Translations under genes and position numbers: made by a program
Notes under the pieces: generated by a model
Databases searched by the model: none
What the model was told of the DNA's origin: nothing
The model's input: only the letters and a program-made list of their open reading frames with translations
In this document: positions 4,812-32,924 of the stretch, one piece after another
Numbering within the stretch: position 1 is the stretch's first letter
How the letters are laid out: every line of letters starts with the position of its first letter
Source: an uncultured Sphingomonadales bacterium
GTDB taxonomy: Bacteria > Pseudomonadota > Alphaproteobacteria > Sphingomonadales > Sphingomonadaceae
NCBI GenBank assembly: GCA_903911985.1
Contig: CAIWFP010000043.1
Location: forward strand, 1 to 36,226
DNA: 36,226 bases
Reading direction: 5' to 3'

Positions 4812-5065
4812 GGGAAACCTTTTCAGGACTTGGTGCCCCGCCGTGGCGCAGGCCGCGCTCCGTGGCAATCCCGGCACGGGTAACATTTTGTCGCCGGCGC
4901 ATGACAGCCTCGGGACGAAAACGCCAAAGTGCATGGCGCATCGCGGCGATTACGCCAAGTCTTTCCTTTTTCGCGATCGCCCGCTATGGGCCTCCCGCGA
5001 AACCCATATTTTGGCCCCCCAGTTACTGGCCTCCCACTTAACTGGCAAAGAACCGAACAGGCGGA

Positions 5066-9408: not shown

Positions 9409-9434
9409 GCGGTGGCGACCAACCTCATTGGACT

Positions 9435-13025: not shown

Positions 13026-13118
13026 TTGGTAATCCCCCAGCAAATTTCTTTATTTCGGCGTAAGCGCAAGACATAAGCTGCAAACGCATACCCAACTGTG
13101 CGCAATAATAGAGCGTTG

Positions 13119-13430: not shown

Positions 13431-14393
13431 ATGCTGACAATGTCTGATAAATCCATGGGATCTGATGCTGGCACTCGGTTCCGGCTGCAACGATCAGAGC
13501 TCGCGGTACCAGCAACGTCCCTGCCTTTTTTCGAAAAGGCGGCACGCGGGCCGGCGGATTCGCTGTTTCTGGATTTGGAGGACGCGGTCGCGCCACAGCG
13601 CCGGGATGAGGCGCGCGAAAATGCAGTGCGTGCGCTTAATGATATCGATTGGGGAACCAAGACGGTGTCGGTCCGGGTCAATGGCTTGGGCACTCGCTGG
13701 GCCCTTGCCGATATTCTGGCGGTGGCGCGCTGCCCGCGGCTGGACATGATCCTGCTGCCCAAAGTGGAAACCGCCGGCGACGTGGTGTTTCTTGACCGGC
13801 TGTTGACCGGGCTGGAACTGGAACTGCCGCGCCAGCGCCCGCTCGGCATCGAAATCCTGATCGAGACCACCAAGGGCCTCGCCAATGTAGAGGCAATCGC
13901 CGCCTCTTCGCCCCGGCTGGAAGGGATCATTTTTGGCGTGGGCGATTATTCGATCGAGCTGGAAAATTTTGACACTGTGTTCGGTGCGCCCAACCCCGAA
14001 TACCAGGTCGCAGGCGCACAGGGTGACCAGTGGCACTTTGCGCTGGCACGGATCGCCAATGCCTGCCGCGCCTATGGCTTGCGCCCGATCGACGGGCCAT
14101 TCACCAACTATGGCGATCCCGATGCCTATCGCGCCAGCGCCATCCGCGCGCGCGCACTGGGTTTCGAAGGCAAATGGGCGATCCACCCCAGCCAGGTGGC
14201 GATCGCCAACGACGTGTTCACGCCCAGCGCTGCGCAAATCGCCTGGGCACGCGATATCGCGGCCAAAATGGATGCGGCGGCCGAAGAGGGCAAAGGCGCC
14301 ATCGGCTTTGAAGGCGTGCTGATCGATCGGGCTCACGTCCTGCTTTCGGGCAAGATCCTGCGCCGCGCGCGGCTTGCCGGGCTGGAGTCCTGA
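13431..14393 (+). CDS. HpcH/HpaI aldolase / citrate lyase beta family; malyl-CoA / beta-methylmalyl-CoA-lyase-like
   Basis: FRLQRSELAVPATSLPFFEKAARGPADSLFLDLEDAVAPQRRDEAR, SVRVNGLGTRW, IEILIETTKGLANVEAIAASSPRLEGIIFGVGDYS, KWAIHPSQ. Start may be 13431 or 13440. Confidence 0.9.
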   Translation: MLTMSDKSMGSDAGTRFRLQRSELAVPATSLPFFEKAARGPADSLFLDLEDAVAPQRRDEARENAVRALNDIDWGTKTVSVRVNGLGTRWALADILAVARCPRLDMILLPKVETAGDVVFLDRLLTGLELELPRQRPLGIEILIETTKGLANVEAIAASSPRLEGIIFGVGDYSIELENFDTVFGAPNPEYQVAGAQGDQWHFALARIANACRAYGLRPIDGPFTNYGDPDAYRASAIRARALGFEGKWAIHPSQVAIANDVFTPSAAQIAWARDIAAKMDAAAEEGKGAIGFEGVLIDRAHVLLSGKILRRARLAGLES

Positions 14394-14395
14394 TC

Positions 14396-15592
14396 ATGGC
14401 CGGGCCGCTTGAAGGTATTCGCGTGCTCGACATCGCCACGTTTGTGGCTGCGCCGTTCTGCGGCACGATCATGGCCGAATTTGGTGCCGAGGTGATCAAG
14501 ATCGAACAGCCGGGCGAAGGCGATTCACTGCGCCGGTTCGGCACGATGACCGACAGCGGCGACACGCTGGTGTGGCTGAGCGAGGCGCGCAACAAGAAAT
14601 CGGTAACGCTGGACTTGCGCACCCCCGAAGGCGCCGCCATGTTCCGCCAGTTGGTGGCAAAGGCGGACGTGGTGCTGGAAAATTTCCGGCCGGGCACGAT
14701 GGAAAAATGGGGCCTGGGCTATGCCGCGCTGGCCGAAATCAACCCCCGGCTGGTGATGCTGCAGGTCAGTGCCTATGGCCAGACCGGTCCGCTGCGTGAC
14801 AAGCCCGGGTTTGCCCGCATCGCCCATGCGTTCAGCGGCCTGGCCTATCTGGCGGGTGAACCCGGCCGACCGCCGGTGGTGCCGGGATCGACCTCGCTCG
14901 CCGATTACATGTCGGGGCTGTTTGGCGCGGTGGGCGTGCTGATGGCATTGCGCCATGCCGAACGCACCGGCGAAGGCCAGTCGATCGACATTGCGCTGTA
15001 TGAATCAATCTTTCGCGTGCTGGATGAACTGGCGCCGGCCTATGACAAGTTCGGGTATCAGCGCGAACGCATGGGGCCCGATACCGTCAACGTCGTCCCG
15101 CACAGCCATTACGAAACCCGCGACGGCGCCTGGGTGGCGCTGGCCTGTTCCAACGAACGGATGTGGGAACGGCTGTGCAAGGCCATGGCCCGGCCCGACC
15201 TGATCACCGATCCGCGTTATGCCAGCACGCGCCAGCGCGACGCTCACCGTGCCGAGGTCAACGGCATCGTCGCCGACTGGGCGCGCAGCATGGACGCCGA
15301 TGCCCTGTTGGCGGTGTGCGATGCCAACGACGCACCCGCGTCAAAGCTGCTGAACATCGCGGACATTTTTGAAAACCCGCAATATGCCGCGCGCGAAAAC
15401 CTGCGCACGATCGACGACCCGCGGGTTGGCCGGCTGGTGGTGCCGGGGCCGCTGCCGCGCATGTCGCGCACCCCGTCGGAATTGCGCACGGCCGGGCCGG
15501 AACTGGGCAGTTCGAACGCAGACATTTACGGCGAACTGCTCGGCATCGATGCCGACATGCTGGCCGACCTCAAACAACGCCGGATCATCTGA
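14396..15592 (+). CDS. CaiB/BaiF family (class III) CoA-transferase
   Basis: PLEGIRVLDIATFVAAPFCGTIMAEFGAEVIKIEQPGEGDSLRRFG, RNKKSVTLDLRTPEG, ADVVLENFRPGTMEKWGLGY, CoA-transferase III signatures. Confidence 0.95.
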   Translation: MAGPLEGIRVLDIATFVAAPFCGTIMAEFGAEVIKIEQPGEGDSLRRFGTMTDSGDTLVWLSEARNKKSVTLDLRTPEGAAMFRQLVAKADVVLENFRPGTMEKWGLGYAALAEINPRLVMLQVSAYGQTGPLRDKPGFARIAHAFSGLAYLAGEPGRPPVVPGSTSLADYMSGLFGAVGVLMALRHAERTGEGQSIDIALYESIFRVLDELAPAYDKFGYQRERMGPDTVNVVPHSHYETRDGAWVALACSNERMWERLCKAMARPDLITDPRYASTRQRDAHRAEVNGIVADWARSMDADALLAVCDANDAPASKLLNIADIFENPQYAARENLRTIDDPRVGRLVVPGPLPRMSRTPSELRTAGPELGSSNADIYGELLGIDADMLADLKQRRII

Positions 15593-15618
15593 CCAGGCCC
15601 ATTACGGAGAGTTCACCC

Positions 15619-16956
15619 ATGACAACCGGTCGCCAGATGGCGCTTGTCGCATTCCTGCAGGCACAAAACTGCACCAACTTTCCCGCATCGTGGCGGCACC
15701 CGGCGGCGGTATCGGATTTTCTGACGCCCGAATATTATCGGCGGCTGGGCCGCACGCTGGAAGACGGCGCGTTCCATCTGGCGTTCTTTGACGACCGCCT
15801 GGCCATTCCCGATGTCTATGCCGACGATTTTTCGGTGACGATGCGCGAAGGCATCCGCGCGGTGAAGCTGGATCCGATGCTGTGCGCGATGACGCTGGGC
15901 AATGCGACCGAGCGGCTTGGCGTCGGGGTGACCTATTCGACCACGTATTACGAGCCGTTCCATGTGGCGCGGACGTTTGCCACCCTGGACCAACTGACCA
16001 AGGGCCGCGCGGCGTGGAATGTCGTGACCTCGCTCAACAGTTCGGAAGCGGCCAACATGGGCGCGCGCAGCGTGCTGGAACATGATCTGCGCTATGATCG
16101 CGCCGAGGAATTTCTGACCGTCGTGCGCGGTCACTGGCGCGGCTGGGATGATGATGCGCTGATCCTCGACAAGCAAGGCCTGTTTGCCGATCCTGATCGG
16201 GTGCGGCGGCTGGATCACAAGGGCGAATGGTTCCAATCGCGCGGGCCGTTCACCGTGCCGCGGTCGCCGCAGGGCGAACCGATCCTGATCCAGGCCGGGC
16301 AAAGCGGACGCGGGCGCCAGTTTGCCGCCAAATGGGGCGATCTGGTGTTCGTGATCTATCCCAACCTGAAAGTCGGCCAGAAATCCTACGCCGAATTCAA
16401 AGATGAGCTGGAAAAGCAGGGCCGCCCGCGCGATTCAGTGCGGATCGCCCCTGCGGTCTATACCGTTGTCGGCGAAACCCAGGCCCAGGCCGAAGACCGC
16501 CGCGCGGTGATCGATGCGTTGGTCAAGCCGATCGATGGACTGGTGCTGCTGTCCGAAGTGCTGAATTTCGACTTCGCCGCCAAAGGCTATGATGATCCCT
16601 TCACACCAGAGGAAATGGACGGGATTTCGGGCATCCAGGCGTTTCGTGACCGCGTCGTCACGCTGAGCGGCCGGTCCAATCCCAGCCCGCGCGATTTTGT
16701 GGAATTTACCCGGCGCGGCACGCTGGACGAATTTCCGGTGTTCATGGGTTCACCCAAACAGATCGCGGACCAGATGGAAGAATGGTTCGGCACGGCCTGC
16801 GACGGCTTTGTGCTGGCCGGCAGCGTTGCGCCCGGTGCCTATGAAGATTTTGTGCGGCTGGTGGTTCCCGAATTGCGCCGGCGCGGGCTGTTCCACAAGG
16901 GTTATGAAGGCGCGACCTTGCGCGAAAATCTGGGTATCCCCAAGCCGGTCTTTTGA
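15619..16956 (+). CDS. NtaA/SnaA/DszA-type FMNH2-dependent monooxygenase (LLM superfamily)
   Basis: CTNFPASWRHP, TYSTTYYEPFHVARTFATLDQLTKGRAAWNVVTSLNSSEAANMG, EPILIQAGQSGRGRQFAAKWGDLVF are typical of this two-component family. Confidence 0.93.
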   Translation: MTTGRQMALVAFLQAQNCTNFPASWRHPAAVSDFLTPEYYRRLGRTLEDGAFHLAFFDDRLAIPDVYADDFSVTMREGIRAVKLDPMLCAMTLGNATERLGVGVTYSTTYYEPFHVARTFATLDQLTKGRAAWNVVTSLNSSEAANMGARSVLEHDLRYDRAEEFLTVVRGHWRGWDDDALILDKQGLFADPDRVRRLDHKGEWFQSRGPFTVPRSPQGEPILIQAGQSGRGRQFAAKWGDLVFVIYPNLKVGQKSYAEFKDELEKQGRPRDSVRIAPAVYTVVGETQAQAEDRRAVIDALVKPIDGLVLLSEVLNFDFAAKGYDDPFTPEEMDGISGIQAFRDRVVTLSGRSNPSPRDFVEFTRRGTLDEFPVFMGSPKQIADQMEEWFGTACDGFVLAGSVAPGAYEDFVRLVVPELRRRGLFHKGYEGATLRENLGIPKPVF

Positions 16957-16968
16957 AGCACCAGCGCG

Positions 16969-17886
16969 ATGGCCAAAATCAATCTGAAGCTGCTGCGCGC
17001 ATTCGAGGCGGTTGCCCGCAACCGGTCGTTCACCGCGGCTGCCGGTGAGTTGCAGCGATCACAGGCGACCATCAGCAGCCAGGTCAGTGTGCTGGAACAA
17101 CAGTTGGGCGTGCCTTTGGTCGAACGGACATCGCGGCGGGTATCGCCAACCACTGCCGGCGCGGATCTGGCCGGCCTGCTTGCGCAGGCATTCACATTGA
17201 TTGATGATGGCATCGCTGCGGCGCGCAGCCATGCGGATGATCGGCGCAGGCGGATCGTGGTCGCCTGTGTGCCATCGTTGTCGGGCGTGCTGATGCCCGG
17301 CTTGCTGGCCGCTTATCGCACCAAAGACACGACGACGCGGATCGATCTGGAAGAGCTGACATCGACCGAGATTGTCGCCGCGCTGCTGGCTGATCGGGTC
17401 GATTTTGGCATCGGACCCTGCGCCACGCCGCTGCCCGCCGGCATTGCCTTTGCCGCTGCCATCGAAGAACCACTGCATGTACTGCTGTCGGCGCAGCATG
17501 TGCCGGCCGGGGCGACCGCAATGCCGTTCGCAAAGCTGGTGTCGCTGCCGCTGATTACCTTGTCAGGTTCGGTGCTGCTGCAGCGTGAACTGGAACAGGC
17601 GGCGGCGGCGCGCGGATTGCGGTTAAGCTCCCACAGCGAAGTGCGCCATGTGCAGACCGCGATCGGCATGGTTCAGGCCGGCGTTGGTGCGGCGGTGGTA
17701 CCACGGCTTGCCCTGCCCGCCAGTTTGAGCGCGGGACTGGTTGCGCTGCCGGTCAGCGATCCGGCAATGCTGCGCACGATCGGTATCATCACCCGCCATG
17801 GCACGCCGCTGCGATCGGCGGCGGCGCGTCTCGCCCGCTATGTTCGCAGTGCGCTTGCCGCAAAAAGCATGATCCCGCCGGCATGA
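16969..17886 (+). CDS. LysR-family transcriptional regulator 1
   Basis: N-terminal HTH LKLLRAFEAVARNRSFTAAAGELQRSQATISSQVSVLEQQLGVPLVERTSRRVSPTTAG. Confidence 0.95.
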   Translation: MAKINLKLLRAFEAVARNRSFTAAAGELQRSQATISSQVSVLEQQLGVPLVERTSRRVSPTTAGADLAGLLAQAFTLIDDGIAAARSHADDRRRRIVVACVPSLSGVLMPGLLAAYRTKDTTTRIDLEELTSTEIVAALLADRVDFGIGPCATPLPAGIAFAAAIEEPLHVLLSAQHVPAGATAMPFAKLVSLPLITLSGSVLLQRELEQAAAARGLRLSSHSEVRHVQTAIGMVQAGVGAAVVPRLALPASLSAGLVALPVSDPAMLRTIGIITRHGTPLRSAAARLARYVRSALAAKSMIPPA

Positions 17887-18755
17887 CCGGCATGCCCGTG
17901 ACCAAAGGACCCGCCATGACCCACCGCCCCCGCCGCAGCGCGCTTTATCTGCCCGCATCCAACGCCAAAGCGATTGCCAAGGCGCGCACGCTGCCCTGCG
18001 ATGTCGTGATTCTTGATCTGGAGGATGCCGTCGCGCCCGATGCCAAGGCCATGGCGCGCGATCAGGCGGTGGCCGCCGTGAACGAAGGCGGTTTCGGGCC
18101 GCGCGAGATTGTAGTGCGGGTCAACGCGCTGGACACCGAATGGGGTGCGGACGATCTGGCGGCGCTGCATCTCTGCAGCCCCGATGCGGTGCTGGTGCCC
18201 AAGGTCATGCACGCGGGTGATGTTGATCACTATGCCCGGCACATGGCCGCAACGACGCCGATCTGGGCGATGATCGAAACCACCGCTTCACTGTTTCGGC
18301 TGGATACGATCGCCGGTGCTGAGCGGCTGACCGCGCTGGTGATGGGCACCAACGATCTGGCCAAGGAAACGGGCGCGCAACCGGGGCGCGATCGCCTGCC
18401 CTTTGTCGGCGCGCTGGGCCTGGCGGTGGTGGCGGCACGATTGCACGGCCGGGTGATTCTCGATGGCGTGTTCAACGGGATCGACGATGATGAAGGGTTC
18501 AGCGCGCAGGCGCGGCAGGCGGTTGAATTCGGCTTTGATGGCAAGACGCTGATCCATCCGCGCCAGATTGATCCATGCAATGCCGCGTTTCTGCCCGATG
18601 CGGCCGAACTGGCCTGGTCGCGGCAGATTATCGAAGCGTTTGATCGCCCTGAAAACCAGCAAAAGGGGGCGATCCGGGTCGATGGCAAAATGGTCGAACG
18701 GCTGCACCTGCACCAGGCGCACCGGGTGATTGCCGCAGCACTCCAGCCGGGGTGA
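17883..18755 (+). CDS. HpcH/CitE-family lyase 2
   Basis: RRSALYLPASNAKAIAKARTLPCDVVILDLEDAVAPDAKAMARD, IVVRVNALDTEWG, IWAMIETTASLF, KTLIHPRQI. ATG overlaps the lysR stop; alternative start MTHRPRR at 17916. Confidence 0.92.
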   Translation: MTGMPVTKGPAMTHRPRRSALYLPASNAKAIAKARTLPCDVVILDLEDAVAPDAKAMARDQAVAAVNEGGFGPREIVVRVNALDTEWGADDLAALHLCSPDAVLVPKVMHAGDVDHYARHMAATTPIWAMIETTASLFRLDTIAGAERLTALVMGTNDLAKETGAQPGRDRLPFVGALGLAVVAARLHGRVILDGVFNGIDDDEGFSAQARQAVEFGFDGKTLIHPRQIDPCNAAFLPDAAELAWSRQIIEAFDRPENQQKGAIRVDGKMVERLHLHQAHRVIAAALQPG

Positions 18756-19525: not shown

Positions 19526-21952
19526 CTACATGGTAAAGCCGACGGTCAGGCCATAGGTGGCGGGCTTGCCAGCATAGCGGGCAGAGACATCGGATGTCGT
19601 GACAACGTTGGTCCAGTAATAAGTGTTGAGCAGGTTCTTTGCCCAGACCATTACCCTCCATCGCCCGTCCGGTCCTTCGTAGCCAATCCGGCCATCGACT
19701 GTGGCATAGGCCTTGGTCACAAACGGATTGATGAGGCCCGGCAGGATGCGGGTGGTCGGCGCGGGGGCTACAGTGATCGAGCTGCCCCCGGGGACGGTAT
19801 CCGATTTGGAATGCCCGTTGACGCTGACGCCAATAAAGGGCGCGCCACCGTTTTCAAGGCGGTGACGGTATTCCGCATTGATGCCATAATTCCAGCGCGG
19901 CGCGAACGGCAGGGCCTGGCCAGCAAAATTGCGGTTTGCCCCAATATAATCGACGCCGTTGTAGGTATCGATTTTCGCTTCGAGATAGGTCAGCGAGCCG
20001 CTGAGCGTCAGGTCGGGCGAGGCCTTGACCACCACATCGCCTTCAACGCCGAACACGTGGCTTTTGGGGATGTTGCGCAGCACGTCGAGCACACCGAACA
20101 CCGGGTCAACCGCCTTGGTCAGTACCTGCTTGTCGGCATATTTGTAATAAAACACCGCGCTGTTGAACTGAACCTTGCGGTCCATCAGGCTGGCCTTCAC
20201 ACCGCCTTCATAAGCGGTGACCGCCTCTTGCGTCACCGGCGTGTATTGTGATGTTGTCGCCGCCGCCAGAATGGGGAAGCTGCCCGCCTTGTACCCGCGT
20301 GACACGTTGATATAAAGCAACGCTTCCGGATTGAGCCTGTAATCGAGGCCAGCGCGCCACGACACGTTGCTTTGTGACAAAGTCTGTTTGACTTCATCGC
20401 GGTTGGGCACGTTCTGCGCGTTCAGCGGGTAACAGCGCCCCGCGACCGGGCCTGTCGAACCGATCGGGGTAAAGGTGGTGGTGCCGAGCACCCCGCCCAG
20501 AATGTTGAACAGCGTGGCCAGCCGGCCGTCGCCCGCATCAACTGCGCAGATTGTCGCGGCATCCCTGGTGTTGGTATAACGAATCGCCCCCTTCAGCGTC
20601 AGTTCCGGGGTCAGATCGTATTCGCCATTGGCAAAGAACGCATAGTTGCGGATCGATTGGCGGTTGAGCGCCACCGCCTGGAAAAAGTTGTTCAGCGGCG
20701 CGCTGTTGTTGGAATCGTTTAAAAAGGCCAGCCACTGCAATTCGCTGGTCGTGCTCTTTTCCAGATTGGCACCCAGCACCCAGCGAAATGCCGACTTGGC
20801 GATGTTGGACAGACGTAGTTCCTGGTTGAACGAGGTGATCCGCCCGTTGTCTTCCTGAAGGTCCGAGATCAGCAGCGCCGACCCGTCGTTGTCAGAGGTC
20901 TGCTTCTGGTCAAAGTGGTCATACGATGTCAGCGAGGTCAGCTGGATATCGCTGGCCACATTGATGTCGGCGCGGAACGCGATCTGGTAGAATTTGCGAT
21001 CGCTGCGCGGGGTATTGATGCCGGTAGCCCAATCGGCCGCCCGTGCGTTACCGGATGTGAACGGCACCAGCAGCTCTTCAGGGCGCACCGTTGACGGGGT
21101 CTGCGGTTGCAGCAGGATGAATTGCGCCGCCTGGGGCTGCGACGTGTCGTGCCAGCCGTTGACGTTCAGTGCCACATGCACTGCACTGCCCAGATCGCCA
21201 TCGATCAGAAAGCGGCCCGCGAGATAGCTTTGTTTGCCATTGCGGTCGGTCGGGCGGGTGTCGCTGATCTGCCAGCCATCCGAATTGAGCCCGGTGACCG
21301 CGACCCGCGCACGGAAGGAATTGCTGAGCGGACCACTGATATAGGCATTGCCTTCAACCTGGTTGAACCGGCCAAAGCTGACATCGCCGCCGGCTGCAAA
21401 GACCTTGGTCGGCTTAGCCGCGATGTAGTTGATCGCACCACCGGTAGAGTTCTGCCCGAACAGCGTGCCCTGTGGGCCTTTGAGCACTTCGATGCGTTCA
21501 AGGTCATAAGCAGAATGGCTGGCCAGCACCGGAAACGGCAACGGCGCCTGATCGACATAGACACTGACCGCGGGATAGACGCCCAGCGAGCTTTCGTTGA
21601 AGCCGACGCCGCGCAAGGTCAGGATCGGTGTGTTGTTGACGCTGGGGGCAAAGGCCAGCCCGGGCACGACTGCGGCAACATCCTGCAGCGAGGTGATCTT
21701 GCGCTCGTTAAGGTCTTTGCCCGACAGCACCGACACGGTCAGGCCGACCTTGTTCAGCCGTTCCTCACGCTTGTTGGCGGTGACGATGATTTCGCCAGGC
21801 TGGTTGTTGCTGTCCGCGTCGGCAGCGGGTTTGGGCGCCGCTGCGGCCGGGGACGCCGTTTGCGCGACTGCCGTTGAGGCGACGCACAGTGCAGTGGCAA
21901 GGCCAAGTAACCCGCCAGAGCTTCGAACATCCCGCAAGATGGATTTTGTCAT
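19526..21952 (-). CDS. TonB-dependent receptor (island copy 2)
   Basis: EIIVTANKREERLNKVGLTVSVLSGKDL, IEVLKGPQGTLFGQNSTGGAINYIAAKP, C-terminus YAGKPATYGLTVGFTM; obvious paralogue of 10560-13025. Start at MTKSILRD (21952). Confidence 0.95.
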   Translation of the reverse strand: MTKSILRDVRSSGGLLGLATALCVASTAVAQTASPAAAAPKPAADADSNNQPGEIIVTANKREERLNKVGLTVSVLSGKDLNERKITSLQDVAAVVPGLAFAPSVNNTPILTLRGVGFNESSLGVYPAVSVYVDQAPLPFPVLASHSAYDLERIEVLKGPQGTLFGQNSTGGAINYIAAKPTKVFAAGGDVSFGRFNQVEGNAYISGPLSNSFRARVAVTGLNSDGWQISDTRPTDRNGKQSYLAGRFLIDGDLGSAVHVALNVNGWHDTSQPQAAQFILLQPQTPSTVRPEELLVPFTSGNARAADWATGINTPRSDRKFYQIAFRADINVASDIQLTSLTSYDHFDQKQTSDNDGSALLISDLQEDNGRITSFNQELRLSNIAKSAFRWVLGANLEKSTTSELQWLAFLNDSNNSAPLNNFFQAVALNRQSIRNYAFFANGEYDLTPELTLKGAIRYTNTRDAATICAVDAGDGRLATLFNILGGVLGTTTFTPIGSTGPVAGRCYPLNAQNVPNRDEVKQTLSQSNVSWRAGLDYRLNPEALLYINVSRGYKAGSFPILAAATTSQYTPVTQEAVTAYEGGVKASLMDRKVQFNSAVFYYKYADKQVLTKAVDPVFGVLDVLRNIPKSHVFGVEGDVVVKASPDLTLSGSLTYLEAKIDTYNGVDYIGANRNFAGQALPFAPRWNYGINAEYRHRLENGGAPFIGVSVNGHSKSDTVPGGSSITVAPAPTTRILPGLINPFVTKAYATVDGRIGYEGPDGRWRVMVWAKNLLNTYYWTNVVTTSDVSARYAGKPATYGLTVGFTM

Positions 21953-22289
21953 GATTTTGCTCTCCCATTCGGGCCAGACCCGACTTTTCGTCGGGAACGC
22001 CACCGTTTCCCCATTTTTTCCGACGCTAACGGCCCCCATAAATCTATCAAGCGCGATTATCTGAAGAATTGATTGGAAAAAGGGATTTATCGTTGGGCGG
22101 GGAATGCGGTCGATGGCGGCACTTTGGCGCGGCCGGAACCGGCATGGCCGATTATGTTGCTAATTGAATTAATCATTGAGATAAATCTACTTGCCCGCGT
22201 AACGTGCGCTTCTTAAGTTTTTGCATCGGGCCAAGCCGCTTGCTGTGCCCCAGTGCGCCACATCCACTCTTTCGCCTCGGAACGTCTCG

Positions 22290-23774
22290 ATGAAAAATTA
22301 TGGCAATTACATCGACGGGCAATGGGTGCCACCGGTCAGCGGTCTGCATATCGAGACCGAAAATCCTTTTACGCGAAAGACCTGGGCCACGATTGCGCGC
22401 AGCGGACCAGAGGATGTGGAGCGTGCGGTCGCGGCCGCATCGGCCGCGTTCGAACAGGGCCCGTGGAGCAGGATGAGCGCGTCGGCCCGGGGCAAATTGC
22501 TGTGGCGGATGGGCGATCTGCTTGAGGCTAATGTGGAACGGCTCGCGCTGATGGAGACCAGCGACAATGGCCGCACATTGTCCGATATGCGCGGCATTGT
22601 GCGCGCGCTGGCAGACAATTTCCGCTATTTCGCCGGGCTGGCCGACAAAGTCGAAGGCGCGGTGCCGCCGATCGAAAAGGCGGACTATTTCAATTACACC
22701 CGCCACGAACCCTATGGCGTGGTGGCCGCGATCACCCCATGGAACAGCCCGCTGTTGCTGGTGGTGTGGAAACTGGCGCCGGGCCTTGCGGCCGGCTGCA
22801 CATTTGTCATCAAACCACACGAAGTTGCCTCGGTCGGCACGCTGGAACTGGCCGCACTGTTTGGCGAGGCCGGCTTTCCCGATGGCGTTGTCAATGTCGT
22901 TACCGGCACCGGTGCGGAAGTGGGTGAGGCGCTGGTATCGCACCCGAAGGTGCGCAAGATCGCCTTTACCGGCGGCGATGTTGCCGGGCGCGCGATTTAC
23001 CAGTCCGCTGCGCGCGATTTCAAACCAGTCACATTGGAGCTTGGCGGCAAATCACCCAACATCGTGTTTGACGATGCCAATCTGGATAACGCCGCCAAGG
23101 GCAGCGTGCTGGGCATGTTCAACACATCGGGTCAGGCCTGCATCGCCTGTTCGCGCGTGCTGGTACAGGACAGCATTTACGACGCCTTTATCGAAAAGCT
23201 GATCGCGCACACGGCCGTGGCGCGGTTGGGTGATCCGACCGACCCGGCAACCGAAATGGGGCCGATGGGTTGCCGCCAGCATTTCGACAAAGTGATGGGC
23301 TATCTCGACATTGCCCGCGACGAAGGTGCGACAGTGCTGCTGGGCGGAACCGCGGCACGGCGTCCCGGGCTGGAAGGCGGCTATTTCGTCGAACCCACCA
23401 TCCTGGGCGATGTCAGCAACACCATGCGCGTGGCGCGTGAGGAGATCTTTGGCCCGATCATGGCCGTGATCCGTTTCAAGGATGAAGCAGACGCCATCGC
23501 CATCGCCAATGACAGCGATTACGGGCTGGGTGCGGGCGTGTGGACCGAAAACATGCGCCGCGCCATCCGCGTCGCGCATCAGCTGGCAGCCGGGTCGGTC
23601 TATGTCAATTCCTACCGCGTGGTCAGCTATATGTCGCCGTTTGGCGGATACAAGAGCAGCGGGCTGGGCCGCGAAAACGGCGTCGAGGCCATCCGCGAAT
23701 ATCTGCAGACCAAAAGCGTGTGGTTTTCATTGAACGAAACGGCGCCACCCCCGTTTGGCAAGCCTTACGGCTGA
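22290..23774 (+). CDS. NAD(P)-dependent aldehyde dehydrogenase
   Basis: AITPWNSPLLLVVWKLAPGLAAGCTFVIKP, VTLELGGKSPNIVFDDANLD, MFNTSGQACIACSRVLVQ (catalytic Cys), EEIFGPIMAVIRFKDEADAIAIANDSDYGLGAGVWT. Confidence 0.95.
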   Translation: MKNYGNYIDGQWVPPVSGLHIETENPFTRKTWATIARSGPEDVERAVAAASAAFEQGPWSRMSASARGKLLWRMGDLLEANVERLALMETSDNGRTLSDMRGIVRALADNFRYFAGLADKVEGAVPPIEKADYFNYTRHEPYGVVAAITPWNSPLLLVVWKLAPGLAAGCTFVIKPHEVASVGTLELAALFGEAGFPDGVVNVVTGTGAEVGEALVSHPKVRKIAFTGGDVAGRAIYQSAARDFKPVTLELGGKSPNIVFDDANLDNAAKGSVLGMFNTSGQACIACSRVLVQDSIYDAFIEKLIAHTAVARLGDPTDPATEMGPMGCRQHFDKVMGYLDIARDEGATVLLGGTAARRPGLEGGYFVEPTILGDVSNTMRVAREEIFGPIMAVIRFKDEADAIAIANDSDYGLGAGVWTENMRRAIRVAHQLAAGSVYVNSYRVVSYMSPFGGYKSSGLGRENGVEAIREYLQTKSVWFSLNETAPPPFGKPYG

Positions 23775-23820: not shown

Positions 23821-25059
23821 ATGACAGAGTCTGCTGCAGTTCGGCATCCTCCGCGTCCAAGGATCAGGTTCGGTGTGTTCATGCCACCGATGCATCCGAC
23901 CAACGAAGACCCGACACTCGCGATCCACCGCGATTTTGAACTGATGGAGTTGCTCGACGACCTTGATTATCACGAGGCGTGGATTGGCGAACATCATTCC
24001 GGCGGCTGGGAAATTCACGGCAGCCCGGAACTGTTCATAGCCGCTGCTGCGCAGCGCACGCGCAACATCCGCTTTGGCACCGGGGTGGTGTCGACGCCTT
24101 ATCACCATCCCTATATGGTGGCGGAACGCATCCGCAATCTGGATCATATCACGCGTGGCCGGCTGATGTTTGGCATGGGCCCGGGATCGCTGCCATCCGA
24201 TGCGCATATGCTGGGCGTCGACACGGCCAAGGTGCGCGATCTGCTGGAGGAATCGATCGATCCGATCGCGCGGTTGCTGAACGGCGAGACGGTCACCCAG
24301 AAAAGCGACTGGTTCACGCTGCAGGACGCCCGGCTGCATTTTCTGTCGTACAAGGAAGATGGCGTCGAAATGGCGGTCGCCAGCCAGGTTTCGCCGACTG
24401 GTGCGCGGCTTGCCGGCAAATACGGCATGGGGCTGCTCTCGCTGGGCGCGACCTCGATCGCGGGGTTCAATGCGCTGGCGTCCAATTGGGCGATCGCCGA
24501 GGAATCTGCGCGCGATCATGGCAAGACAATGAACCGCGCCGGCTGGCGGCTGGTCGGACCAATGCACATCGCCGAAACCCGCGAACAGGCGCGCAAGGAT
24601 GTCGAATGGGGGTTCCACCGCTGGGTCGATTATTACCGCCATGTCGCCACCCTGCCGCTGGCGCCTGATGGCGTCGATCCGATCCAGGCGATGGTCGATT
24701 CGGGCTTTGCCGTCGTCGGTACGCCAGAAGATGCGGTCGAACAGATCGAACGGCTGATCGAGGTTTCGGGCGGTTTCGGCGCGTTTCTGCATCTGTCCGG
24801 CAATTGGGCGGATACCGCGCCAACCAAACGGTCCTATGAACTGTTCGCGCGGTACGTTGCCCCCATGATCAATCGCGTCAACGTCAACCGCGTTGAATCC
24901 GAGGCATTTTTGCGCGCCAACCATGGGCAGTTCGCGGCCGCGATGAAATCGGCGGTGGGTGCCAAGATCGACCAGTACATGGCCGAAAAGGGCCAGGACA
25001 ATGTCGCGCCGGTGTTCCAGGAGGTGTTTTCGAAAATCCATCCCGAGGCAGCAGAATGA
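23821..25059 (+). CDS. LLM-class flavin-dependent oxidoreductase (bacterial luciferase / limonene-monooxygenase-like subgroup)
   Basis: IRFGVFMPPMHPTNEDPTLAIHRDFELMELLDDLDYHEAWIGEHHSGGWEIHGSPELFIAAAAQRTRNIRFGTGVVSTPYHHPYMVAERIRNLDHITRGRLMFGMGPGSLPSDAHMLG. Subgroup assignment is tentative. Confidence 0.9.
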   Translation: MTESAAVRHPPRPRIRFGVFMPPMHPTNEDPTLAIHRDFELMELLDDLDYHEAWIGEHHSGGWEIHGSPELFIAAAAQRTRNIRFGTGVVSTPYHHPYMVAERIRNLDHITRGRLMFGMGPGSLPSDAHMLGVDTAKVRDLLEESIDPIARLLNGETVTQKSDWFTLQDARLHFLSYKEDGVEMAVASQVSPTGARLAGKYGMGLLSLGATSIAGFNALASNWAIAEESARDHGKTMNRAGWRLVGPMHIAETREQARKDVEWGFHRWVDYYRHVATLPLAPDGVDPIQAMVDSGFAVVGTPEDAVEQIERLIEVSGGFGAFLHLSGNWADTAPTKRSYELFARYVAPMINRVNVNRVESEAFLRANHGQFAAAMKSAVGAKIDQYMAEKGQDNVAPVFQEVFSKIHPEAAE

Positions 25060-26723
25060 CCACCGTTGCTGCTGCCAGTCCGACCGTGGCGCCCGAACCG
25101 GAACAGTTTGACGCGGTGATCGTCGGCGCCGGGTTTGCCGGACTGTATCTGTTTCACACCTTGCGCGGCAAAGGTATGCGGGTACGGGTGATCGATGCTG
25201 CCGATGGCGTGGGCGGCACGTGGTACTGGAACCGCTATCCGGGCGCGCGGTGCGACGTGCTGAGCGTGGATTATTCGTTTTCGTTTTCCGAAGAGATCCA
25301 GCAAGCCTGGGTCTGGACCGAAAAATACGCGGCCCAGCCCGAAATCCTGCGCTATCTGGAATTTGTGGCCGATCGGCTCGATTTGCGCCGCGACATCCGG
25401 TTTTCCACCCGCGTCGAGGCGGCGATCTATGACGATGCCACCGCCAGCTGGTTGGTCCGCACCGATGATGGCCTGACGTGCACCGCGCGGTTCTGCATCA
25501 TGGCGACAGGCTGTCTGTCGATCCCGAAAGAGCCGGACATACCCGGGCTGGCGGCGTTTACCGGCCCGGTCTATTTCACCTCACGCTGGCCACAGCAGCA
25601 TACCGATTTTGCCGGCCAGACCGTAGGGCTGATCGGCACGGGATCGTCGGGTATTCAGGCTGGGCCTGAAATCGCCAAAACGGCCGAACGCCTGCTGGTG
25701 TTTCAACGCACGCCCAGCTTTACCATTCCGGCGCGCAATATCCCGCTAGCTGATGATTTCATGAACGAAATCAAGGCGGACTACGCCGCACGGCGCCAGG
25801 CTGCGCGCAGGCATCCGGCCGGGCACCTGCGGCCGATCACCCGGCGCACGACGTTCAGCTATGACGACAAGGAACGCCGCGAAGCGTTTGAAGGGGCATG
25901 GCAGCGCGGCGGGCAGGACTTGTTCGGCGTATTTGGCGACCTGATCGTCGACGAGGCCGCCAACGCCGAAATCGCCCGGATGATCTATGACAAGATCGAC
26001 GAGGCCGTCGCCGATCCGGCCACTGCAGCAGCACTGAAACCGCGCGGCGCACCGTTGGGCGGGCGGCGCATCTGTCTCGACACCGATTATTACGCGATGT
26101 TCAACCGCAGCAACGTTACGCTGGTCGATGTGCTGGCCGATCCGATCACCACCGTGGTGGCGGATGGTGTGCAGACGCACGGCGCGCATTACCGGCTCGA
26201 TGCGCTGGTGCTGGCCACCGGGTTTGATGCGATGACTGGCGCCTTGTTGAACATCGATATTCGCGGCCGAAACGGGACACCACTGCGCGAAAAGTGGAGC
26301 CACGGCCCGGTTTCCTATCTCGGCATTGCGATCGCGGGCTTTCCCAACCTGTTCACGATTACCGGACCGGGCAGCCCTTCGGTGCTGTCCAATGTCGTCG
26401 CATCAATCGAACAGCATGTCGAATGGCTGGCAGACTTGTTTGACCACATGGACGCCCACGGGTTGCGGGTGGCCGAGGCCGATGCCGATGCCGAGCAGGC
26501 ATGGGTACGCCACGTCTATGATCTGGCTGCACCCACGCTGATGATCAAGGCGAATTCGTGGTACCTGGGCGCCAATGTGCCCGGTAAACCGCGGGTATTC
26601 ATGCCTTATGTCGGCGGACTGGATGTGTATCGCGACAAGGCGGATGCGATTGCACATGATGGCTATCGCGGGTTTCATTTCGACGCAGAAACACCAAACG
26701 TGCGGGCTACGCACGCGGCCTGA
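25056..26723 (+). CDS. Flavin-containing monooxygenase, Baeyer-Villiger (type I)-like
   Basis: Rossmann VIVGAGFAGLYLFHTLR; GGTWYWNRYPGARCDV (BVMO-associated motif); FTGPVYFTSRWP (degenerate BVMO fingerprint); second Rossmann VGLIGTGSSGIQ; ATGA overlap with the upstream LLM gene. Confidence 0.9.
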   Translation: MTTVAAASPTVAPEPEQFDAVIVGAGFAGLYLFHTLRGKGMRVRVIDAADGVGGTWYWNRYPGARCDVLSVDYSFSFSEEIQQAWVWTEKYAAQPEILRYLEFVADRLDLRRDIRFSTRVEAAIYDDATASWLVRTDDGLTCTARFCIMATGCLSIPKEPDIPGLAAFTGPVYFTSRWPQQHTDFAGQTVGLIGTGSSGIQAGPEIAKTAERLLVFQRTPSFTIPARNIPLADDFMNEIKADYAARRQAARRHPAGHLRPITRRTTFSYDDKERREAFEGAWQRGGQDLFGVFGDLIVDEAANAEIARMIYDKIDEAVADPATAAALKPRGAPLGGRRICLDTDYYAMFNRSNVTLVDVLADPITTVVADGVQTHGAHYRLDALVLATGFDAMTGALLNIDIRGRNGTPLREKWSHGPVSYLGIAIAGFPNLFTITGPGSPSVLSNVVASIEQHVEWLADLFDHMDAHGLRVAEADADAEQAWVRHVYDLAAPTLMIKANSWYLGANVPGKPRVFMPYVGGLDVYRDKADAIAHDGYRGFHFDAETPNVRATHAA

Positions 26724-26853: not shown

Positions 26854-27771
26854 TCAGGCCACCAAATTGTCAAGCGCGCTGCGGAACCGGTCGACAATCA
26901 ACCCGGTCAGCTCAATCGCGGCGGGCGACAGCGAATTGCCCTTTAGCGTGATCAGGCACAGATTGCGTTCCAGCACCGGATCGACAATCGGCAATGCCTG
27001 CAGTGTCGCGTCCATCGGTTGCGGGATCATGATCCTGGGCAGGATCGCCACGCCCAGCCCCGCCTGTGCAAAGGCCAGCATTGTCTGCACCTGGATTACT
27101 TCGAACGAATTGGTGATTTCCAGCCCGCGCAGCGCCAGTTCGCGGTTGAGCCGGTTGCGCAGCGCGGCAGATGATGACGCCAGGACCACCGGCAATTCTG
27201 CCAGGTCCGCCAGTGTAATCGACGTTAAATCGGGCTTCCAATAGGCTTGCGGCAGCAGGGCATAGATCGGTTCAACCCCGATCAGGGCAAAATCGAAATC
27301 ACTGGTGTCTTCAACCTCGGGACCGATTCCGAACGAAATTTCCTGGCGCGCCACTGCTTGCAGCAATTGCTCCGACGCCAGTTCGCGCAATTCCAGCCGG
27401 ATGCCGCCGCGCTTGCGCTGAAATTCGGCGAGCACACCGGGCAGCACGGTCGCGGCGATGCTGGGCACACAGCCGATCGAGATATGGCCCTGCTGGATGT
27501 TGGCAGCTTCACGAATTTCGCGCAGGCCCTGTTCAAGCGAGGCGACAGCGCGTTGCGCATGGCCCAGCAACTGCACGCCCTCGGCCGTCAATTGCACGCG
27601 CCGGGTGGTGCGGTGAAACAGCGAAACGCCGATCTGTTCTTCTAGCAAACGTATTTGTGTGCTGACCGCAGATTGCGACCGATGCAGCAATTCAGCTGCC
27701 TTGCGAAAGCTGCAGGTTTCCGCAACCACCACAAAGATTTGAATAGCCCTGAGATTGTACATCATTATCAA
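26854..27771 (-). CDS. LysR-family transcriptional regulator 2
   Basis: YNLRAIQIFVVVAETCSFRKAAELLHRSQSAVSTQIRLLEEQIGVSLFHRTTRRVQLTAEG, LysR HTH. Confidence 0.95.
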   Translation of the reverse strand: MIMMYNLRAIQIFVVVAETCSFRKAAELLHRSQSAVSTQIRLLEEQIGVSLFHRTTRRVQLTAEGVQLLGHAQRAVASLEQGLREIREAANIQQGHISIGCVPSIAATVLPGVLAEFQRKRGGIRLELRELASEQLLQAVARQEISFGIGPEVEDTSDFDFALIGVEPIYALLPQAYWKPDLTSITLADLAELPVVLASSSAALRNRLNRELALRGLEITNSFEVIQVQTMLAFAQAGLGVAILPRIMIPQPMDATLQALPIVDPVLERNLCLITLKGNSLSPAAIELTGLIVDRFRSALDNLVA

Positions 27772-27875: not shown

Positions 27876-28874
27876 TTATGATGCAACAAGCGCGCGCCGA
27901 AAAGCATCAAGCGAATCGTGTTCAAAACGCTGTGCCACGGCGGCCCTGGTGATCAGCGTAAAGCCATGGTAGGCGCCGGGATAGACGTGGAGCTCGGTCG
28001 GCACCCCCGATCGCATCAGCGCTTGCGCAAAGGCAATGTCTTCATCGGCAAACAAGTCGATGGCGCCGGCGGCGATGAATGTCGGTGGCAGCCCGGCCAA
28101 GTCCTGCGCGCGTGCCGGCGCGGCATAGACCGGCACCGGTTCGATCCCGGCCAGATAGCTGGACCAGGCAAAGCGATTGGCCGCGATTGGCCAGACGTAA
28201 GTGCCGGCAACCGGATGCGGCCCGGTGCGATCGTCCAGCATCGGATAGACAAGCGACAGAAACGCAATGGCAGGTCCGTGATGGTCACGGGCATGGAGAG
28301 CCAGACCGGCGGCCAGCCCCCCGCCGGCGCTGACGCCGCGCACCGCGATGCGGGCGCGATCAATCGTCAGAGTATCGGTTTGATCATGCAGCCAGCGCAA
28401 CGCAGCAACGGCATCGTACAGCGCGCCGGGATACGGCGTTTCGGGGGCCAGACGGTAATCGATGGTCAAAATCACGGCATTCAGCGCAACCGCAAGCGCG
28501 CGCATTGCGCCATCCTCGCGCTCTGCCGTCCCGGCCACGAACCCGCCGCCATGCAGGTTCAAAATCGCCGGGTGCGGCCCCGCGCTGGCCGGGCGATGCA
28601 ACAATCCGCTGATCGCGGGCCCATCGGCGCCTGATGGCAGCCAAACCCGTTCCACTGTCAGGCCGACCGGCGGGTCGAGCGGTGGTGTTCGCGCCAGCGT
28701 GTCACGGATTGCAGGCAGATTCGCCAGCGACAGCCCGCCCAAATCCGGCAACACCGCCAGCGCGGGGCGCAGATCGGAATCGACCAGGTGTTCGCCGGAT
28801 GGCGCTGTCACGGCGTGCCCGGGGTGAGGCACGTGCGCGTCGGACCACGCATCATTGTGCGGTATATCCGCCAT
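27876..28874 (-). CDS. Alpha/beta hydrolase, HSL family (esterase/lactonase-like)
   Basis: ILNLHGGGFVAG oxyanion motif, VRGVSAGGGLAAG nucleophile elbow, GAIDLFADED and VYPGAYHGF for catalytic Asp/His. Confidence 0.93.
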   Translation of the reverse strand: MADIPHNDAWSDAHVPHPGHAVTAPSGEHLVDSDLRPALAVLPDLGGLSLANLPAIRDTLARTPPLDPPVGLTVERVWLPSGADGPAISGLLHRPASAGPHPAILNLHGGGFVAGTAEREDGAMRALAVALNAVILTIDYRLAPETPYPGALYDAVAALRWLHDQTDTLTIDRARIAVRGVSAGGGLAAGLALHARDHHGPAIAFLSLVYPMLDDRTGPHPVAGTYVWPIAANRFAWSSYLAGIEPVPVYAAPARAQDLAGLPPTFIAAGAIDLFADEDIAFAQALMRSGVPTELHVYPGAYHGFTLITRAAVAQRFEHDSLDAFRRALVAS

Positions 28875-29634
28875 CGATCACGAGTTCCGCGCCGGTGACA
28901 AACCGGGATTCGTCAGAGGCAAGGTACAGCGCGCCCATGGCGATATCTTCGGGTTCGCCAAGATGGCCGATCGGTTGCAGATTGTCGTAGAACACCCGCC
29001 CGGCCTCGGCATCGCCATACCGGCGGATAGATTGTTCGAGCAACGGTGTGCGGATGAAACCGGGGTGGATGGTATTGACCCGCACGTTGATGCGCTCTTT
29101 GGCGCACGAGAGCGCGACCGATTTGCTGTAGAGCCGCACACCGCCTTTGGACGCATTGTAGGCTGCGATTCCGGGCTGGCCGACGATGCCCAGCACCGAC
29201 GAAATGTTGATGATCGATCCGATCACCGGGCTGGTTTCCATCATCAAGGCAAGCTCGTGCTTGGTCGCAAGGAACGTACCATCCAGATTGACGCTGTTGA
29301 TCCGGCGCCATTCGTCAATCGTGGTCTGGGTCGGAAAGGTAAGCTCGGTAACCGAGGTCCCGGCGCAGTTGACCGCAATATTCAGCCCGCCGAATGTCGC
29401 CTTGATATGCGCCATCAAGGCAATCCAGGCCTGTTCATCGACAACATTGTGATGGACATATTCGGCCGTCCCGCCAGCGACGCGGATGTCGTCAACCACG
29501 CCCTGACCCAGATCATCGTTGAGGTCGACCAGCATCACCTGTGCGCCCTGTCTGGCCAGCAAACGCGCGCAGGCAGCGCCAATCCCGCTTGCAGCGCCCG
29601 AAACCAGCGCAATCTTTCCGGCAACCCGATCCAT
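28852..29634 (-). CDS. Short-chain dehydrogenase/reductase 1
   Basis: KIALVSGAASGIGAACARLLARQGAQVMLVDLND, NCAGT, SVLGIVGQPGIAAYNASKGGV, ITGAE-like tail VTGAELVIDGGYTAQ. Start chosen at MDRVAGK. Confidence 0.94.
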   Translation of the reverse strand: MDRVAGKIALVSGAASGIGAACARLLARQGAQVMLVDLNDDLGQGVVDDIRVAGGTAEYVHHNVVDEQAWIALMAHIKATFGGLNIAVNCAGTSVTELTFPTQTTIDEWRRINSVNLDGTFLATKHELALMMETSPVIGSIINISSVLGIVGQPGIAAYNASKGGVRLYSKSVALSCAKERINVRVNTIHPGFIRTPLLEQSIRRYGDAEAGRVFYDNLQPIGHLGEPEDIAMGALYLASDESRFVTGAELVIDGGYTAQ

Positions 29635-29923
29635 GCGTCCATCCTTATCATCGCTGCGTTGCGCAGCTTGGCCCGTCCGGCATGGCTTGATCGACTGCAC
29701 GAGCCGATCTGCCGGGCCATTTCACATAGCGTAGAGCGCACGCGGTAAACGCTCAATCGGATAATTTCAATTGATTGTTCTGATTGGCGAATGAGTGACA
29801 AATTGCGATCGAGCGCTGATAAATCTGTAAATCGAAATAGTCGTGTCGATTTGTCCGATTGTTGTACCACTCGAAGGTGCATATCCCTTTTCCGCTAATG
29901 ACCGATTATACGAGGCACAAAAG

Positions 29924-31129
29924 ATGACCGCACCACTGGAAGGGATGCTGGTTCTTGACCTGACCCGCAACCTTGCGGGACCGTTCTGCACGATGATCCT
30001 GGGCGACCTGGGCGCGCGCGTGATCAAGGTTGAACGCCCGGGCACGGGTGATGACACGCGCGACTGGCAACCACCCAGCTGGGCCGGTCGCAGTTCGCTG
30101 TTTGTTGCCACCAACCGCAACAAGGAAAGCATTGCGATCGACATCGATACCCCCGACGGTGCCGAGGCAATCCGCCGGCTGGCGGCCAAGGCCGACATCG
30201 TGGTCGAATCGTTTCGCGGCGGCAGCCTGGAAAAGAAAGGCTTTGGCTTTGACGATCTGAAGCAGATCAACCCGCGGCTGGTCTATTGTTCGCTAAGTGC
30301 ATTTGGCGCGCGTGGCCCCCATCGCGATCGGCCTGGGTATGACGCGCTGATTCAGGCCTATTCGGGCATCATGAGCATTACCGGGGAACCGGGCCGGTCG
30401 GCGGTGCGCGTCGGGCCGTCGATCATCGACATGGGATCGGCACATTGGGCGGCGATCGGCATTCTGGCGGCGCTGCGCATCCGCGATCAGACGGGTGAGG
30501 CTCAGCATGTTGAAACCAGCCTGCTGGAAACCGGGGTGGCGTGGATGTCCTATTTCGCGGCCGGCTATTTTGCCGACGGATCGGTCGCGGGGCCAAGCGG
30601 TACGCGCCACAGTGTGATGGCGCCATACGAGGATTTTGCAGCGAGCGATGGCCTGCTTTATATCGCGGCCCCGAACCAAAGCTTGTTTGTTTCGCTGTGC
30701 CGGGTGATCGGCAAGCCCGAATTGATCGACGATCCGCGTTTTTCCAGCAATCCGATGCGCCTGACCAATCGCGACGCGCTGCACAATCTGATCGAAGATC
30801 GGCTGCGACAGGATGATTGCACGACCTGGGAAAACCTGATGCTGGAACATGGCATCCCGTGTTCGCGGCTGCAGACGATCGACGAGGTGGTGAAGGATCC
30901 GCAGGTCGTGGCGCTCGATCTCATTCGCAATTTCAACCACCCCGATATTCCCGATTACCGGCTGGTCGATCACCCGATATCCTACAATGGCAACCGCGCC
31001 TTTCGGCTCGACCCAGCGCCTGAACTGGGCCAGCATACCGACGCTGTGCTGCGCTCGCTCGGCTTTGACGATGATGCGATCGAGGCTGCGCGCGGCGGAA
31101 CCCGGGCCGCCCGCACGGCTGCGGACTGA
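29924..31129 (+). CDS. CaiB/BaiF family CoA-transferase 2
   Basis: APLEGMLVLDLTRNLAGPFCTMILGDLGARVIKVERPGTGDDTRDWQPP, RNKESIAIDIDTPDG, ADIVVESFRGGSLEKKGFGFDDL. Start chosen at 29924. Confidence 0.95.
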   Translation: MTAPLEGMLVLDLTRNLAGPFCTMILGDLGARVIKVERPGTGDDTRDWQPPSWAGRSSLFVATNRNKESIAIDIDTPDGAEAIRRLAAKADIVVESFRGGSLEKKGFGFDDLKQINPRLVYCSLSAFGARGPHRDRPGYDALIQAYSGIMSITGEPGRSAVRVGPSIIDMGSAHWAAIGILAALRIRDQTGEAQHVETSLLETGVAWMSYFAAGYFADGSVAGPSGTRHSVMAPYEDFAASDGLLYIAAPNQSLFVSLCRVIGKPELIDDPRFSSNPMRLTNRDALHNLIEDRLRQDDCTTWENLMLEHGIPCSRLQTIDEVVKDPQVVALDLIRNFNHPDIPDYRLVDHPISYNGNRAFRLDPAPELGQHTDAVLRSLGFDDDAIEAARGGTRAARTAAD

Positions 31130-31140
31130 CAGGAGCAAAC

Positions 31141-32085
31141 GTGTCCTCCACCCCTTCCCTCGGCGTCTATCCCGGCCCGATCATCGACACGTTCCTGCAT
31201 GGGCCATGGATCGGGCAGCCTTCGGGTGCGGCGGTGCGCGCCGATCGGGTGGAATGGATTGGCGACCGGCGGTTGCGCCGGGTGATGACAACGTTCCGGC
31301 ATGATGTCCGCGCAGGTGACGGCATCACCTATCTTGCGATACCTGATCTGCTGGCGGCGATGGATGAGGCAAGCGTGGCGCGCGGCATTCTGGCCACCAA
31401 AGTCTATTATCCCGCGCCCGCCGATGCGGTGATTGCGCTCAATCGCGACTTTGCCGCGATGAGCGCAGCCAGCGGCGGCCGGCTGAAATGGATCGCATCG
31501 GCGATCCCCCCCGAACTGGGCGGATCAAGTTATTGGGACGTCATGCAGAATTCGCGTCTGATCGATGCGATCTTCGCTGATCCCGGCTTGTGCGGCATCC
31601 ATCTGACCCCGTCGCCGTGGGGCATTTTGCCCAGCGACCGCTGGTTCTATCCGCTTTACGCCAAATGCGTCGAATATGGCCTGCCGGTGTTTACTTATGT
31701 CGGCGCACCCGGCCCGTTGTGGCCGATGGATCTGAACAACCCTGCGCACCTGGACGAGGTTGCGCTGGCCTTTCCCGATCTGACCATCATCGCGCACCAT
31801 ATCGGCGATCCGTGGACCGACATGGCGGTGCGGCTCGCCGCCCGCCACGAACATTTCTACATCTGCACATCGGCCTGGTCGCCAAAGGCCTATCCCGCTG
31901 CGCTGATGCAATTTCTGGCAGGCAGGTGGCACGGCGTGCGCGGCTGCGACAAGGTTATTTTTGCGTCAGATTATCCGCTGCTCGATCTCGCCATCACCAC
32001 GCGTAATGCCCGCGCGCTGGCGCTTGAACCCGAACGACTGGAAAAATTCCTGTTTGCCAACGCAGACCGGCTGTTCTGGTCATGA
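31141..32085 (+). CDS. Amidohydrolase-2 (ACMSD-like) family protein
   Basis: GTG start; IIDTFLHGPW at the N-terminus, LTIIAHHIGDPW, C-terminal KVIFASDYPLLDL...LFANADRLF typical of amidohydrolase_2. Confidence 0.82.
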   Translation: MSSTPSLGVYPGPIIDTFLHGPWIGQPSGAAVRADRVEWIGDRRLRRVMTTFRHDVRAGDGITYLAIPDLLAAMDEASVARGILATKVYYPAPADAVIALNRDFAAMSAASGGRLKWIASAIPPELGGSSYWDVMQNSRLIDAIFADPGLCGIHLTPSPWGILPSDRWFYPLYAKCVEYGLPVFTYVGAPGPLWPMDLNNPAHLDEVALAFPDLTIIAHHIGDPWTDMAVRLAARHEHFYICTSAWSPKAYPAALMQFLAGRWHGVRGCDKVIFASDYPLLDLAITTRNARALALEPERLEKFLFANADRLFWS

Positions 32086-32101
32086 GCCCAAAGGTAACGA
32101 C

Positions 32102-32890
32102 ATGCATTCGATAAAGACCGACATCGCGTGGAGCGCGCCGGATTCGATCACGGCGTTTGGCCGCGATTTGCCCAGCGAAATCCTTGGACATGTCAGCTTT
32201 GGCGACATGGCGTTTCTGGAAATAACCCGGCGCATTCCGGATGCGAATGAATCGCGTATGTTCAACGCCATGCTGGTCACGCTGGTCGAACACGGGCTGA
32301 CGCCCAGCACAATTGCCGCGCGCCTGACCTATCTTGGCGCGCCCGAAGCGATGCAGGCCGCCGTTGCTGCCGGGCTGTCGGGGCTTGGCAGCGTGTTCGT
32401 CGGCAGCGTCGAAGGCACCGCACAGATGCTGTATGAAGTGATGCCGGCGCCCGATGCCGCGGCCGACCTGCCAGCGCTGGCGCAGGACATCGTGGAGCGG
32501 TTCGCGGCGCGCAAGGCGATCCTGCCGGGCATTGGCCATCCGTTTCACAAACCGATCGACCCCCGCACCCCGCGCCTGATCGCGATTGCCACAGAAACCG
32601 GGTTTGCCGGGCCGTATATCGCCCTGGTGCAGCAAGTTGCCGCAGAGGCCGAGCGGCAAAAGGGCAAATCGCTGCCCGTCAATGCCACCGGCATTCTGGG
32701 CGCGCTGTGCTGCGAAATGGGGTTCGATTGGCGGGTCTGTCGCGGCATTGGCGTGATGGCGCGAGCGGTTGGCCTGGTCGGGCATATCCTGGAAGAGGCG
32801 CGCAACCCGATCGCACGGCAGATCTGGCTGCAGGCCGAGCAGGCAGCGACCGAACATTTTCGCGCAGATCCAGCGGCCACTACGGGTTGA
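32102..32890 (+). CDS. Citrate synthase-superfamily protein, citryl-CoA-lyase-like
   Basis: LPGIGHPFHKPIDPRTPRLIAIA and NATGILGALCCEMGFDWRVCRGIGVMARAVGLVGHILEE match citrate synthase/citryl-CoA lyase motifs; 262 aa, shorter than citrate synthase. Start at MHSIKTD. Confidence 0.85.
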   Translation: MHSIKTDIAWSAPDSITAFGRDLPSEILGHVSFGDMAFLEITRRIPDANESRMFNAMLVTLVEHGLTPSTIAARLTYLGAPEAMQAAVAAGLSGLGSVFVGSVEGTAQMLYEVMPAPDAAADLPALAQDIVERFAARKAILPGIGHPFHKPIDPRTPRLIAIATETGFAGPYIALVQQVAAEAERQKGKSLPVNATGILGALCCEMGFDWRVCRGIGVMARAVGLVGHILEEARNPIARQIWLQAEQAATEHFRADPAATTG

Positions 32891-32924
32891 GCGAATACAA
32901 TTGTCAGACGGAAAGACGCAAAAA

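Follow-up and report, generated by a model that had tools for sequence, protein, structure and literature searches.

The window analysed here, a stretch of 36,226 nucleotides from an uncultured Sphingomonadales bacterium, carries a gene for a class B flavoprotein monooxygenase resembling type I Baeyer-Villiger monooxygenases (BVMOs), set among the following genes:

13431..18755, + strand: CitE-like lyase, CoA-transferase III, NtaA/DmoA-family FMN monooxygenase, LysR gene and a further CitE-like lyase
22287..23774, + strand: aldehyde dehydrogenase, upstream of the BVMO gene and in the same direction (PF00171, E 9e-176)
23821..25059, + strand: luciferase-like monooxygenase (LLM; PF00296, E 2.5e-39)
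25056..26723, + strand: BVMO gene of the PAMO/STMO type, 555 aa (phmmer, AF2, Foldseek)
26854..27771, - strand: LysR-type regulator facing the BVMO gene; its orthologue adjoins a Ser-type BVMO in locus L156
27876..28874, - strand: hormone-sensitive-lipase-like esterase (PF07859, E 1e-56; heroin esterase 1lzk, E 6.5e-53)
28852..29634, - strand: short-chain dehydrogenase (SDR; PF13561/PF00106)
29843..32085, + strand: CoA-transferase III and amidohydrolase, also part of this gene cluster

The BVMO gene contained no stop and no frameshift. Its product was matched by phmmer to PAMO of Thermobifida fusca (1w4x; E 1.4e-186, 625 bits) and to steroid monooxygenase (4ap3; E 5e-174), with 52-53% identity to PAMO over the full length and 49% to STMO of Rhodococcus rhodochrous (4aos), a protein of the same clade and fold from another organism. 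An AlphaFold (AF2) model built on a 66-sequence alignment reached a pLDDT of 93.5 and a pTM of 0.91, and Foldseek superimposed it on NADP-bound PAMO (2ylr among the PAMO entries) with an rmsd of 0.9-1.1 Å and a TM(target) of 0.98-0.99. Full-length homology and the common fold of PAMO, STMO and CHMO were thus both found. Within the reading frame the following sites were located:

25125..25142, + strand: FAD-binding Rossmann motif GAGFAG, residues 24-29, in invariant or near-invariant columns
25212..25256, + strand: first BVMO fingerprint GGTWYWNRYPGARCD, residues 53-67, with catalytic Asp67 (PAMO D66)
25557..25592, + strand: second BVMO fingerprint region FTGPVYFTSRWP, residues 168-179; consensus FxGxxxHxxxW[P/D] (PMC4498894)
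25575..25577, + strand: codon TTC for Phe174, in the place of PAMO His173
25635..25652, + strand: NADPH-binding Rossmann motif GTGSSG, residues 194-199
26067..26069, + strand: catalytic Arg338 (PAMO R337), placed by alignment

The protein shares with PAMO its fold, the catalytic Asp/Arg pair (D67 and R338), the two GxGxx[G/A] Rossmann motifs that flank the fingerprints, and the first fingerprint [A/G]GxWxxxx[F/Y]P[G/M]xxxD. The NADPH-site residues Arg218 and Thr219 are kept, as is Trp502, and at none of the 95 columns conserved in at least 93% of 284 homologues does the protein depart from the consensus. It differs from PAMO at His173 (Phe174 here), Gly175 (Ser176), Lys336 (Arg337) and Gln152 (Cys153). 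The first of these changes breaks the strict second fingerprint, of which FTGPVYFTSRWP retains four of the five specified positions. Phe174 paired with His173 without gaps both in the HMMER alignment to 1w4x and in MAFFT. The original prediction, made for positions 25540-25602, which enclose the motif, had named this Phe-for-His change and an otherwise intact signature; the codons, the frame and the remaining motifs were all exactly as it described. The flavin-containing monooxygenase (FMO) motif FxGxxxHxxx[Y/F] without BVMO fingerprints does not describe the protein, which has Trp at position 11 of the motif and carries the first BVMO fingerprint. Reassignment to the FMOs was rejected, the match to PF00743 being weak (34 bits) against 625 bits to PAMO.

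An error of sequencing, which the original prediction had raised as a way in which it could fail, or of assembly at the His codon was ruled out. An overlapping contig of a separate assembly (G118:C14, equal to L007/L087) differs from the window at three codons across the BVMO gene and at none in the motif. Two diverged relatives also lack the His: the BVMO of locus L008 (62% identical) likewise has Phe (FRGEVYFTSRWP), and that of L090 (63% identical) has Ser (FRGEVYSTSSWP). With no point in its favour, such an error has a practically negligible probability. The gene is genuine and so is its Phe174 substitution, which a small clade has kept.

To see how often relatives lose the His, homologues were picked by overall similarity and never by the motif. 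The His was absent from 58 of 284 readable rows, its replacements being Gln (15), Phe (13), Tyr (10), Val (6), Arg (5), Ile (3), Ser (2), Leu (2) and Thr (2). It was missing from 29 of 72 homologues in genomes of the genus and order (40%) and from 17 of 130 in an even class-wide draw of 385 genomes (13%); these sets favour relatives of the query, so that the percentages apply to PAMO-type proteins and not to BVMOs as a whole. The strict second fingerprint as a whole was failed by 30 of the 130 class-wide homologues. Arg337 and Arg217 were present in all 58 non-His homologues and Asp66 in all 57 that could be read at that position.

Parsimony placed 12 changes at the His position on 155-row trees made without the motif columns and 21 on the 284-row tree. 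Phe alone accounted for five changes on the former and seven on the latter. The trees, from FastTree and quick IQ-TREE runs, contain many weak forks, and the safe figure is eight: on the 155-row trees at least eight changes could be placed on paths sharing no well-supported branch. The query, its G118:C14 copy and the BVMOs of L008 and L090 grouped together in a single clade (support 100 and 99), with the His-type enzyme of L075, from the actinobacterium Klenkia, as sister (support 94 and 88). In terms of sequence the idea of an atypical BVMO subgroup is correct, since there is a small, supported Phe/Ser clade, but the His has been replaced separately many times and this clade is just one such case. 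Judged from these alignments and trees, the His is not a conserved column in the PAMO-type clade and has been replaced many separate times.

The original prediction had also proposed that the enzyme might do other chemistry. Under this hypothesis loss of the His, with Phe altering domain motion, would lead to NADPH oxidase-like uncoupling, heteroatom oxidation or hydroxylation. Published mutagenesis gives it some ground, engineered mutants at the His having been less efficient in the case of CHMO and inactive in that of HAPMO (as cited in PMC3762062); tolerance of Phe at this position is accordingly not guaranteed. A second point is the NADPH-site residue K336 (PAMO numbering), which is Arg in the query, in 14 of 41 non-His proteins and in only 8 of 113 His proteins. 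This association was not shown to be independent of descent: among eight independent pairs K336R and His loss went the same way in 1.5 and the other way in 0.1, which is not significant. When all columns were screened against His loss, further strong raw associations appeared, e.g. Pro at PAMO position 156, Lys at 157 and Ser at 175 besides Arg at 336, and in the descent-aware test none of those listed was significant; with eight independent pairs only, the test is underpowered rather than negative. Against other chemistry stand the intact first fingerprint, fold and remaining catalytic and cofactor residues, a PAMO-like gene context common to His and non-His versions, and BVMOAf1 of Aspergillus fumigatus, a natural H173Q enzyme that is an active and stereoselective BVMO (PMC3762062). 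We consider other chemistry unsupported and improbable. A related idea, that the non-His versions (Phe, aliphatic, Gln, Tyr) represent lineages with a retuned linker between the FAD and NADPH domains and an altered NADPH/NADP+ exchange or coupling, is doubtful, if somewhat less so. If true, the His-less BVMOs would be functionally distinct enzymes that motif-based mining systematically leaves out.

BVMOAf1 resembles the present enzyme as a natural BVMO with the fingerprint His replaced. It differs in having Gln rather than Phe, in being fungal, in its fusion to a second domain and in its 42% identity to PAMO (PMC3762062). The literature searched yielded no characterised Phe-type BVMO, so an ordinary BVMO with the same Phe, a finding by which the original prediction could be refuted, is matched by analogy only, through the Gln of BVMOAf1. 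Rhodococcal BVMOs without the fully conserved motif have also been noted (PMC3762062). Taken together, the CHMO and HAPMO mutants on one side and BVMOAf1 and the rhodococcal enzymes on the other indicate that the His is important in some backgrounds and dispensable in others. The motif has been placed in a linker rather than strictly within the active site, and described as one that may "eventually be degenerated" (data not shown there; PMC9044951).

The gene neighbourhood bears on function in two ways. The end of the LLM gene overlaps the start of the BVMO gene by 4 bp (ATGA), and the nearest solved chain to the LLM is the type II BVMO 3,6-diketocamphane monooxygenase (4uwm, E 2.9e-23). It could thus be supposed that the LLM carries out the Baeyer-Villiger step and that the BVMO is decaying, with Phe174 as an early sign of relaxed constraint. 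There is a precedent for such redundancy in the Sphingomonadales, as in the pdc cluster of Caenibius tardaugens a neighbouring BVMO and LLM both oxidise progesterone by Baeyer-Villiger reaction and are functionally redundant (PMC12239570). In an anthraquinone degrader, a type I BVMO has an LLM-type one in its close vicinity (PMC9836352). However, the gene described here is free of stops and frameshifts and departs from none of the conserved columns, and the L008 BVMO keeps the Phe with the rest of the site intact. L008, moreover, has an LLM too and yet retains its BVMO. Decay of the BVMO therefore seems quite improbable to us. The pdc system, one of the closest known, differs in some respects: its BVMO is described as carrying a transmembrane segment and sharing 30% identity with STMO, and the cluster has TetR and LuxR regulators, unlike the one here. 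The pdc BVMO of N. aromaticivorans was not recognised in the annotation of three stretches (45-185 kb) of pNL2.

Comparison of clusters points the other way, towards a working enzyme. The Phe-type cluster of L008 has in common with the window two CitE-like lyases, a CoA-transferase, an NtaA/DmoA-family monooxygenase, an LLM, an esterase, an SDR and a citrate-synthase-like gene (43-81% identity); the RipC/CitE-like lyases, CoA-transferase and FMN monooxygenase of 13431..18755 are kept there at 57-81%, and the esterase at 54%. Beside the Ser enzyme of L156 stand the LysR and citrate-synthase-like genes. In L075 the His-type sister enzyme is accompanied by amidohydrolase, CoA-transferase, aldehyde dehydrogenase and esterase genes, the CoA-transferase III and amidohydrolase being 58% and 56% identical to those of the window. 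A partly similar cluster with a His-type BVMO occurs on plasmid pHR1a of N. resinovorum (LLM 68%, esterase 50% identical). That the Phe, Ser and His versions all sit in overlapping catabolic clusters argues for the same reaction in all of them.

Because its descent, fold, catalytic residues and gene context match those of PAMO, the product of ORF 25056-26723 is probably a functional, FAD- and NADPH-dependent Baeyer-Villiger monooxygenase of the PAMO/steroid monooxygenase clade, a reading that draws on sequence comparison and the structure model. The catalytic cycle is established for PAMO and CHMO, and in the present enzyme it would run as follows. NADPH would reduce FAD, and O2 would then give a C4a-peroxyflavin stabilised by Arg338 and NADP+, with Asp67 holding Arg338 in the active state. 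Attack of the peroxyflavin on the substrate ketone would yield an ester or lactone, which the neighbouring esterase would probably hydrolyse. In this lineage Phe (Ser in one member) fills the His position of an otherwise intact enzyme.

The best reading places the type I-like BVMO in a ketone-degradation pathway. We infer its activity, its substrate and the role of the esterase; as judged from gene content only, the substrate would be a ketone of cyclic, aryl or terpenoid type that the SDR produces and the esterase opens. The SDR (28852..29634) is a candidate for the alcohol-to-ketone step and the esterase (27876..28874) a candidate hydrolase of the BVMO product, and the 13431-18755 block, kept in L008, suggests that the pathway has a second arm for oxygenation and C-C cleavage. 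The product of 31961-32890 matches citrate synthase over the C-terminal domain alone; it is conserved close to the BVMO in L156 (68%) as well as within the L008 cluster (43%), and perhaps performs a citryl-CoA-lyase-like step. A ribBA riboflavin-synthesis gene lies directly upstream of the Phe-type BVMO in L008 (6716-7903), inside that flavin-monooxygenase cluster.

The second fingerprint is the gatekeeper for type I BVMO calls (PMC4498894, PMC7570161, PMC9044951) and has been named a "super-hallmark" (PMC9044951). Surveys have used it as their entry criterion, by PHI-BLAST with the motif and motif curation (PMC4498894, PMC7570161) or by strict pattern matching (PMC9044951). Because members were admitted by the motif, the published conservation of its His is partly circular. 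With 30 of 130 class homologues failing the strict motif and the H173Q enzyme BVMOAf1 active, the His is a poor class criterion. We class the 555-aa protein as a fingerprint variant of the PAMO/STMO clade, which the strict type I definition (PMC9044951) would exclude; judging by its relatives, the enzyme with Phe174 is most likely an ordinary BVMO. In the genome samples used here, requiring the His would by itself drop 13% of PAMO-type proteins class-wide and 40% in the genus and order, and the excluded proteins keep the Asp/Arg pair wherever it is readable. Searches that rely on the fingerprint thus miss a sizeable share of PAMO-type enzymes and skip a reservoir of candidate biocatalysts, and the repeated natural replacements offer a ready set for probing what the His does.

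Several further features were recorded around the cluster. Fragments of an integrase-core (rve) transposase lie at 8761-10023, to the left of the catabolic block. Two TonB-dependent receptor genes (10560-13043 and 19526-22039, - strand) lie on either side of the first gene block. Their products share 54% identity, and the pair suggests uptake of a bulky hydrophobic substrate. Positions 36086-36226 of the window are an exact overlap with positions 1-141 of another contig of the same genome (G000:C14), the two together spanning about 80 kb. That contig encodes at least five further class B flavoprotein monooxygenases: one with a Tyr-type motif (3570-5147), two of the His type (10650-12248 and 21647-23251), a distant member (32047-33411) and an FMO-like one near 13195.
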